Below are positions 36,848 to 48,486 of a stretch of DNA of 64,000 nt, one piece after another; within the stretch, counting starts at the first letter, position 1, and each line of letters opens with the position of its first letter. The stretch comes from Paenibacillus sp. FSL K6-1330 (lineage in GTDB: Bacteria > Bacillota > Bacilli > Paenibacillales > Paenibacillaceae), in the NCBI RefSeq assembly GCF_037976825.1, contig NZ_CP150269.1, positions 5,531,501 through 5,595,500 on the forward strand, in the 5' to 3' direction. Position numbers and translations under genes: made by a program. The notes beneath the pieces were generated by a model. The model made no database searches. It was given only the letters and a program-made list of their open reading frames with translations, and was not told where the DNA came from.

Positions 36848-37109
36848 AAAAAACCCCGCCTCTACATATAGAGGCGGGGTTGAACCCGCGGTACCACTCT
36901 AATTCATTTTTATGCAAAATGATCTTCTTCGATGGCCATCACCATCTATCCCTATAACGGTGGAACTCCGGCTAACCCTACATGATCAGGCAGCTGTTCA
37001 TAGACGAGTTCAAAGGGAACGACATTACCGTTTCACACCTGCCAACGGCTCTCTGAAAAGTCATTACGCTTTTACTATTTCTAATCAAAACATTTAGATA
37101 TGAATTTTG
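36848..37109 (-). promoter_or_regulatory. T-box leader (leucine) of leuA
   Basis: The minus strand carries the T-box sequence GAGTGGTACCGCGGGTT (36898-36882) followed by a strong terminator with perfect 12-bp arms (AACCCCGCCTCT 36852-36863 and AGAGGCGGGGTT 36870-36881) and six T. Upstream, CAGAGAGCCG with GGTGTGAAACGG gives the apical part of stem I, and TTTGAACTCGTC places CUC (Leu) in the specifier position. Uncharged tRNA-Leu should stabilise the antiterminator and allow leuA expression. Confidence 0.93.
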
Positions 37110-47667: not shown

Positions 47668-47697
47668 TTGACGAAAAGATCGTACTTTTGTTACAAT
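47668..47697 (+). promoter_or_regulatory. Promoter of the leader peptide / CatB-like gene
   Basis: TTGACG (47668-47673) and TACAAT (47692-47697), spacer 18 nt. Transcription should begin near 47704, about 25 nt before the leader start codon. The rest of 47447-47667 shows no convincing gene. Confidence 0.7.
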
Positions 47698-47728
47698 CTC
47701 ACCAACACTTAGGAAAAGGATGAGGACG

Positions 47729-47782
47729 ATGGTTCGTCGTTTGAAAAGGTTTAAGAATGTAGCTACTGCATTAAGCTTCTGA
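47729..47782 (+). CDS. Putative 17-residue leader peptide upstream of the CatB-like gene
   Basis: ATG 47729 with GGATGAGGA just upstream opens MVRRLKRFKNVATALSF followed by TGA (47780-47782). The strongly basic N-terminus and hydrophobic end resemble drug-sensing leader peptides only in general form. The stop codon lies in the 5' arm of a long hairpin whose 3' arm ends directly before the SD of the acetyltransferase gene. A ribosome stalled on the leader would keep the hairpin from forming. The role in antibiotic-induced translation attenuation is inferred. Confidence 0.6.
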   Translation: MVRRLKRFKNVATALSF

Positions 47783-47812
47783 GTAAATAATGATTTTATT
47801 CTACTTAGAAGC
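47775..47812 (+). promoter_or_regulatory. Hairpin abutting the ribosome binding site of the CatB-like gene
   Basis: GCTTCTGAGTA (47775-47785) pairs with TACTTAGAAGC (47802-47812, one G-U pair). An inner AATAA/TTATT stem extends it past one bulged C. The GAGG SD (47813-47816) follows the stem immediately. There is no T-run, so translational rather than transcriptional attenuation is expected. Confidence 0.65.
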
Positions 47813-47823
47813 GAGGAAAAAGA

Positions 47824-48486
47824 ATGAAACAACATCGGTTTGAACACTGGTCCGAAATTAAGTATTTAAAGGATATTGTCACCAACCCCATGATTCAAGT
47901 AGGGGAATACTCTTACTATTCTGGTTATTACGATCATCATGATTTTGAAGATGGGTGCGTTAGATACCTATGGGGGGATGAAAAATCCAGAAGATTGTTT
48001 AACCCCATCGAAGACCATGGTTGGCATATAGATAAATTGATTATTGGAAACTACGTATGCATTGCAAGTGGTGTAGTTATTTTAATGGGTGGAAATCACA
48101 ATCATCATCCTGAATGGATAACCGTATATCCGTTTGTGGAGCAGATTGAAACTTCTTACCTACCAAAAGGCGATACAGTCATCGAAAGTGATGCCTGGAT
48201 TGGAATGAATGCCATGATTATGCCAGGTGTGACCATAGGCGAAGGCGCCATTGTAGCGGCTGGTTCGGTAGTTGCAAAAGATGTCCCACCATATACTATC
48301 GTAGGCGGTAACCCTGCTAAAGAGATAAGGAAACGCTTTGCGGAAGAAGAAATTGAAAAGTTAAAGGAAATGCGATGGTTTGATTGGAAGCGCGAGAAAA
48401 TTAAACGGGTCAGTCATATCTTGTCCAGTTCTTCCGTTGATCAATTATATGACTTTTATCAAAAAGAAATAAAACCATACGTTTAA
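47824..48486 (+). CDS. CatB/Vat-type xenobiotic acetyltransferase (left-handed beta helix)
   Basis: A 220-residue hexapeptide-repeat acetyltransferase. NPMIQVGEYSYYSGYYDHHDF (about residues 20-40) strongly resembles type B chloramphenicol acetyltransferases. The hexapeptide coils cover about 75-175 (LIIGNYVCIASGVVILMGG, TVIESDAWIGMNAMIMPGV, GEGAIVAAGSVVAKDVPPYT), with the loop GGNHNHHPEW carrying the expected catalytic His, and IVGGNPAKEIRKRF closes the fold. The family acetylates chloramphenicol or streptogramin A using acetyl-CoA. GAGG lies 7 nt before the ATG. A leader peptide and hairpin precede it. The exact drug is unknown. Confidence 0.88.
   Translation: MKQHRFEHWSEIKYLKDIVTNPMIQVGEYSYYSGYYDHHDFEDGCVRYLWGDEKSRRLFNPIEDHGWHIDKLIIGNYVCIASGVVILMGGNHNHHPEWITVYPFVEQIETSYLPKGDTVIESDAWIGMNAMIMPGVTIGEGAIVAAGSVVAKDVPPYTIVGGNPAKEIRKRFAEEEIEKLKEMRWFDWKREKIKRVSHILSSSSVDQLYDFYQKEIKPYV

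Follow-up and report, generated by a model that had tools for sequence, protein, structure and literature searches.

A conserved leader peptide and hairpin upstream of CatB-related acetyltransferase genes of Bacilli: a probable phenicol-inducible translation attenuator whose leader also precedes an MFS transporter gene

The window analyzed here, a stretch of 64,000 nucleotides from the 7.43-Mb, single-contig genome of Paenibacillus sp. FSL K6-1330 (NZ_CP150269.1), contains on its forward strand a gene for a 220-aa CatB-related O-acetyltransferase of the hexapeptide-repeat family (47824..48486), together with a compact set of elements upstream of it. A promoter (47668..47697) comprises TTGACG at 47668-47673, an 18-nt spacer, and TACAAT at 47692-47697, with a TG before the -10 box. 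A leader Shine-Dalgarno (SD) region, AAAGG ... GAGG (47715..47725), recognized in the sequence and in an alignment of related loci (alignment A1), lies 5' of an ATG at 47729 that opens a leader ORF, MVRRLKRFKNVATALSF, of 17 codons with its TGA stop at 47780-47782 (47729..47782). The stop is included in the 5' arm of a hairpin (47775..47790, with 11 bp from 47775-47785 and 5 bp from 47786-47790), and the 3' arm (47796..47812) consists of 47796-47800 (5 bp), a bulged C at 47801, and 47802-47812 (11 bp). Within the 3' arm lies AGAAGC, the 5' half of a possible extended SD; the core SD of the acetyltransferase gene, GAGG (47813..47816), begins at the first base after this arm and stands 7 nt 5' of the ATG at 47824. 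The leader SD and the 17-residue frame ending at TGA 47780, as given in a preliminary description of this DNA, are borne out by the sequence.

The promoter had been described as near-consensus, and it matches at 10 of 12 positions. Since the region contains 4 sites this good against 3.7 expected by chance, the call is supported by conservation and not by the score: 58 of 65 unique leaders have a TTGA[CT] -35 box with a -10 box at 16-19 nt in their upstream sequence. From position and promoter, the leader and the gene would be carried on one transcript. The promoter spacer (47671-47691) also contains an imperfect 21-bp dyad, AC.AAC.AAT.ATT.GTT.GT, in many Paenibacillus-type loci. Across the 58 loci with a promoter, a mean of 11.2 of 21 positions are self-complementary versus 5.6 in shuffled sequences, and the dyad is weaker in other clades (4-14); it is perhaps a repressor site.

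The enzyme was compared with curated models and solved structures. CatB (NCBIfam NF000490) was the best model at 209.6 bits, which agrees with the earlier designation of the protein as a CatB-like acetyltransferase, though the score lies below the equivalog cut-off of 350 bits and we therefore use the term "CatB-related". Among solved structures, type B chloramphenicol acetyltransferases scored 179 bits versus 112 bits for VatD. Many relatives are named CatB-related O-acetyltransferase in their source records, and Paenibacillus sp. EZ-K15 has a counterpart of 99% identity. In plasmid and phage collections, the best-ranked places among the matches listed are 49% and 44% identical, respectively; beyond those listed, 31 plasmid and 6 phage records contain some place of 60-80% identity, which must span a smaller part of the query. 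The next-best curated model, Vat_ABCDEFH, reached 153.7 bits, below the curated cut-offs of 300-475 bits for Vat streptogramin A acetyltransferases. This score and the VatD match leave some room for an enzyme that is Vat-like in substrate, under an attenuator of the same kind that responds to another inducer acting at the peptidyl-transferase center (streptogramin A, a lincosamide, a pleuromutilin, or a natural product). We consider this unlikely, though deserving of some weight: the CatB model and the type B structures score higher, and an Ala or Ser at leader residue 12, described below, is what chloramphenicol requires.

To establish how widely the leader accompanies this gene, we scored 68 close CatB-related loci, 66 of them distinct, which comprised L001-L062 of 79 contig matches, the window, and whole-genome loci L081-L085; the 17 distant matches L063-L079 were left out. 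The motif filters partly fix positions 3, 4, 5, 9, and 11 and, for this count, also position 12 to A or S; L058 was the only distinct locus that they removed. By this measure, 65 of 66 distinct loci carry the leader, or 67 of 68 with duplicates. The sole exception, L058, has a shortened gene match; it lacks both the leader and the 5' stem arm, and TTAGAAGCGAGG of the 3' arm and the SD persist. At L061 and L085, the CatB-related match is split in two pieces, with leader and hairpin intact. According to record titles, the hosts of the leader belong to Paenibacillus, Cohnella, Brevibacillus, Peribacillus, Sporosarcina, Lysinibacillus, Oceanobacillus, Metabacillus, Bacillus, Enterococcus, Vagococcus, and Erysipelothrix. 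The motif-plus-SD filter found the leader at none of 24 more distant acetyltransferase loci (L086-L109). Genomes partly recur between our screens, so that all tallies stand per screen and are not additive. The preliminary description had proposed an alignment of homologous loci, in which loss of the leader frame or of compensatory changes in the hairpin would speak against attenuation; the frame is kept, and the proposal survives the comparison.

The hairpin is likewise a general feature of these loci. The fold of 47700-47860 has a free energy of -38.9 kcal/mol (z -3.09), and 3 of 200 shuffles were as good. All 65 unique loci have a stem of at least 9 consecutive pairs and fold better than shuffled sequences, with z of -2.1 or lower (mean, -3.9). 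In alignment A1 (32 sequences), ACTTAGAAGCGAGG is near-invariant, 97.7% of cells are paired, and the compensatory changes looked for are present as double changes in 4 of 11 pairs. None of 500 shuffles and no slid version of A1 attained its covariation score, and a second alignment, A2, showed the same trend; the arms are near-invariant in most loci, which limits what covariation can show. Pairs of loci were also compared at the fourfold sites of their CatB genes. Below 70% CatB identity, the fourfold sites are 30% identical, which is near random, versus 76% for leader codons 16-18, part of the 5' stem arm; at 80-90% identity, the values are 54% and 97%, respectively. As leader and hairpin both persist while fourfold sites fall to these levels in pairs below 90% protein identity, their conservation exceeds chance. 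Leader codons 16-18 are conserved as RNA and not as peptide, because the stem is kept while the 3' reading frame is not. Thus, L013 and L035 have a TGA at codon 15 before an intact stem, an early stop that they possibly share through one event, and L051 reads the stem in a shifted frame. At L210 (1501-1634), the leader is in register with ATC in place of the start codon, and the altered stem keeps its pairing and includes GGAG (from alignment A2).

The relation of the stem to the SD was examined in predicted folds. The hairpin of 11 plus 5 bp with the leader stop in its 5' arm, and the contact of its 3' arm with GAGG, stand as they were first described; the blocking of the SD calls for a qualification, as the core GAGG of the window is predicted to be mostly unpaired (0.79-0.98) and the paired element is the AGAAGC immediately 5' of it. 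In most loci, the core GAGG adjoins the stem and is at least partly unpaired, with parts of it paired in, for example, L034 and L039-L045. GGAG itself lies inside the stem at L055, and at L056 (Erysipelothrix) a stem of very different sequence has an arm overlapping the SD. The SD:anti-SD duplex is worth -9.3 kcal/mol with AGAAGC versus -5.9 kcal/mol for the core alone, and extended SD pairing matters in Staphylococcus aureus, as described in part of PMC13009471. Since at least part of the core is free of pairing in most loci, steric hindrance and the loss of the AGAAG pairing would have to account for repression; we think, from these models, that the stem may remove the 5' half of the SD and crowd the platform. 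SD blocking is the weakest part of the mechanism proposed below. The accessible core in many predicted folds would also suit a constitutive gene whose leader ORF and hairpin merely couple translation or stabilize the mRNA. Coupling, however, needs neither a peptide constraint that ends at codon 12 or 13 nor a near-constant spacing between codon 12 and the stem, both of which are documented below, and we give this explanation almost no credence.

The leader is not confined to acetyltransferase genes. A covariance model built from CatB leaders only (R1; Infernal E-values are rough, with short calibration) gave matches at an E-value of ≤0.01 in 33 of the 295 genomes screened from the family, 8 of 299 from the class, and 3 of 299 from the phylum, where L199 is a chance match. 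In the Enterococcus family, R1 matched 18 of 105 genomes, 5 of them by chance matches only. At L143, L146, and L147, R1 matches (E-values of 1.2e-7, 1.3e-8, and 6.7e-6) lie upstream of a gene for an unrelated major facilitator superfamily (MFS) transporter of 386-388 aa. Among 32 genomes of one genus, 13 contain an ortholog of this transporter at ≥70% identity, and the leader precedes all 13. A joint model built later (R2) matched, at an E-value of 0.001, 23 of 200 genomes in the family of Sporosarcina genome G634 and 9 of 348 in the class. Every fetched match with a readable leader precedes a CatB-related or an MFS gene, and no third gene type was seen among these matches. The leader was found at none of 29 MFS relatives examined at ≤44% identity, and among MFS loci L149-L178 the filter matched 1 of 30, the already known L149. 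The MFS leader loci are L143:1635-1747 (minus strand), L149, L219-L230, L243, L244, L250, L251, and L253. The transporter had no match above cut-off in curated models and weakly resembles NorA; its named relatives are from Paenibacillus thiaminolyticus, P. larvae, Peribacillus, Viridibacillus, and Bacillus atrophaeus (by name).

MFS leaders take the form TTG-xKKLR[QR][FLY]R[NDK]V[SA]V..., with GCTTCTAA.../...TTAGAAGCGAGG as stem arms. All 16 unique ones begin with TTG, and they carry Lys at position 3 and mostly Lys at position 4. The register from the start codon to residue 12 equals that of CatB leaders; the stem starts 1 nt later, so that its reading frame and the stop differ (LLI*-type ends). 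The peptide RLRQLKNVSV of Enterococcus CatB leaders is nearly identical to KLRQLKNVSV of the L143 MFS leader. Near-identical peptides and an identical stem-SD core favor common descent of the two leader groups over convergence.

We then evaluated which leader residues are constrained by counting changes by parsimony on a single FastTree topology, a CatB tree of 64 sequences (1 of 65 was dropped for a short downstream frame, here as in the fourfold-site comparison). At codons 3, 4, 5, and 9-12, 46 codon changes were accompanied by only 5 amino-acid changes, and codon 11 alone showed 14 codon changes and no residue change. Conversely, 35 of 39 codon changes at codons 14-15 altered the residue. 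Codons 2, 6, 7, 8, and 13 were intermediate (73 codon and 43 amino-acid changes), and CatB columns showed, for comparison, means of 12.45 codon and 3.77 amino-acid changes. Taken as a whole, residues 3-12 do not exceed CatB in conservation when the most distant pairs are compared (65% versus 66%); leader conservation is concentrated in particular positions. Judged from these substitutions, selection on the leader peptide extends to codon 12 or 13 and stops there. As residue changes are scarce at codons 3-5 and 9-12 and dominant at 14-15, selection on the peptide would end at the stall site predicted next.

When position 12 was left free, the 98 unique leaders (82 CatB and 16 MFS) had Ala in 71 cases, Ser in 26, and Ile in 1. 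A ribosome with codon 13 in its P site places residue 12 at position -1 of the nascent chain; in the window, the predicted stall site (47762..47767) comprises Ala12 (GCT), the -1 residue, and Thr13 (ACT) in the P site. Passages of PMC8987054 describe that chloramphenicol and linezolid stall best with Ala, and less with Ser or Thr, at -1, with the Ala dependence of chloramphenicol stalling shown in L. plantarum and B. subtilis, and part of a review ranks the -1 residues as Ala, then Ser, Gly, and Thr (PMC13410324). An Ala or Ser would stand at -1 of the predicted stall in 97 of the 98 unique leaders, the exception being L208. The shared preference of linezolid means that the rule is not specific to chloramphenicol, a point in favor of the other inducers considered above (PMC8987054). 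L208, the sole leader with a residue other than Ala or Ser at 12 (Ile), has Ala at 14.

The geometry of the leader was examined by a stall scan in which the mRNA was masked as far as 15 nt beyond the first P-site base, taken as the ribosome footprint, and the rest was folded. The scan covered 74 of 78 leaders, the 4 others lacking AG[AG]AGCGAGG. In the free mRNA, the mean unpaired probability of AG[AG]AGCGAGG was 0.29, and it remained at 0.26-0.38 for P-site codons 3-11. It rose to 0.65 for a stall at codon 12, 0.77 at codon 13, and 0.73-0.76 at codons 14-16. Thus, in silico, the SD region opens for P-site codons 12-16 and stays closed for 3-11, which lends support to the initial suggestion that a drug-stalled ribosome would free the SD. 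Codon 12 ends 10 nt before the stem in 80 of 82 CatB leaders (9 and 8 nt in the other two) and 11 nt before it in 16 of 16 MFS leaders, a nearly constant spacing. The Ala/Ser at residue 12, the end of the peptide constraint, and the geometry converge on a predicted stall in which codon 13 occupies the P site, which would be expected of chloramphenicol.

Some features count against a strict chloramphenicol reading. A Gly at the A-site codon weakens chloramphenicol arrest, and Gly is found at codon 14 in 3 CatB leaders; Ile12 in 1 leader and the common basic-X-basic (+X+) triplets are to be added. A +X+ triplet at residues 4-6 is present in 90 of the 98 unique leaders (76 of 82 CatB and 14 of 16 MFS leaders), and some +X+ within residues 3-10 in 81 of 82 CatB and 14 of 16 MFS leaders. 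As the motif is nearly universal, it would by itself leave room for a macrolide-inducible attenuator in which +X+ at residues 4-6 or nearby arrests macrolide-bound ribosomes. Such a leader would be ErmDL-like, Arg-Leu-Arg being the ErmDL arrest motif according to part of PMC13410324. However, the SD region stays closed in silico when the ribosome stalls at codons 5-8 (mean, 0.26-0.27), and the constraint on N10, V11, and Ala/Ser12 would be left unexplained. Moreover, the hexapeptide acetyltransferase family of this enzyme is not known to act on macrolides, and we regard macrolide induction as improbable.

The richness of the leader in Arg and Lys could alternatively point to a sensor of arginine or of general translation stress, with the hairpin opening when ribosomes decode the basic leader slowly. 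One arginine-sensing leader, rbfL, is known from PMC13009471, but it is of another kind. We find such a sensor very improbable here, as Arg codons 3-4, mostly CGT, sit too far 5' for a ribosome there to open the hairpin, MFS leaders have Lys at 3 and mostly at 4, and N10, V11, and Ala/Ser12 are constrained as much as the basic residues. Transcription attenuation was also considered and rejected, as the hairpin has no U tract and is absent from the terminator scan.

We therefore propose that the leader and hairpin probably form a phenicol-inducible translation attenuator, with chloramphenicol as the most likely inducer and the stall at codon 13. Without drug, ribosomes would complete the 17-codon leader and the hairpin would re-form, its 3' arm holding AGAAGC and adjoining GAGG, so that the 30S subunit would be kept off the acetyltransferase start. 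In the presence of a peptidyl-transferase drug, most likely chloramphenicol, the ribosome would stop when codon 13 occupies the P site and Ala/Ser12 is at -1, and the RRLxxxKNV peptide upstream of the -1 residue may aid the arrest. The leading edge of the stalled ribosome would cover the 5' arm, thereby releasing the 3' arm; AGAAGCGAGG would become free and the enzyme would be made.

This arrangement can be compared with known systems. In cat-86 and catA112, a short leader ORF with its own SD has a stall codon immediately 5' of a stem-loop that lies at the SD of the gene. Here also, a conserved leader ORF with an SD lies upstream of the gene, and in silico the stall codon is placed to open the stem (74 of 78 leaders). 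The leader described here appears to differ from those in sequence and to be longer, with 17 codons and a predicted stall at codon 13; in addition, the downstream enzyme is of the hexapeptide type (CatB-related), and the stem adjoins the core SD in most loci instead of covering it. What cat-86 and catA112 of Bacillus and Staphylococcus would share with our loci is chloramphenicol-inducible attenuation, described for them in parts of PMC5418344 and PMC5331189. The catB gene of Agrobacterium tumefaciens is likewise a type B acetyltransferase gene under chloramphenicol-inducible translation attenuation (Rogers et al. 2002, as cited in a passage of PMC5331189), but from a Gram-negative organism, and the likeness lies in the mode of control. 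Phenicol acetyltransferases and exporters are established targets of translation attenuation, the chloramphenicol-inducible exporters cmlA and fexA included, according to a table in PMC5418344; acetyltransferase and exporter genes under this type of control thus have a precedent. The difference is that one leader family here would serve both kinds of gene. The erm, msrD, and vmlR-type leaders also rely on drug-dependent stalling on a short leader, and +X+ triplets are present here too, but a stall at +X+ would not open this hairpin.

None of 4227 Rfam models matched over the leader at gathering thresholds, the nearest having E-values of 5.1 and 5.5 when E ≤10 was allowed. Five forms of the leader motif had no match in the text of 5.39 million open papers, and topic searches gave no paper on this leader among the matches listed. 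The main text of a uORF tool paper (PMC10219788) contains neither "chloramphenicol" nor "acetyltransferase." Our best reading is that of a new leader family within a known type of phenicol-inducible attenuator, the cat-86/cmlA kind.

The -1 rule alone leaves the conservation of R3, L5, K9, N10, and V11 unexplained. As a tentative extension, about which we are somewhat doubtful, [RK][RK]Lxxx[KR]NV[AS] might be a portable arrest peptide with tunnel contacts of residues 3-11, the leader and hairpin having moved together, as a cassette, from one resistance gene to another of unrelated type. If so, residues 3-11 would enhance chloramphenicol arrest over and above what the -1 Ala/Ser rule provides, and the MFS protein would be an undescribed phenicol exporter. 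A shared sensor predicts a shared drug, which offers a handle on the MFS family. The leader-peptide family adds to the drug-responsive attenuators; it spans Bacilli and is seen also in Erysipelothrix. It names the residues and the codon to examine and suggests that nascent-chain residues far from -1 may matter for arrest. Genes under such control may look silent in susceptibility tests performed without induction.

Several matches of the covariance models were set aside. L144 and L201 are chance matches upstream of an unrelated signal-peptide-like protein, the match at L199 lies inside a ligase-like frame, and the weak matches L211-L217 were dropped as chance. Many of the weak second matches (E-values of 0.01 to 1) were the hairpin on the opposite strand. 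Elsewhere in the window, a T-box leader is found on the minus strand at 36867-37097 (121.2 bits).
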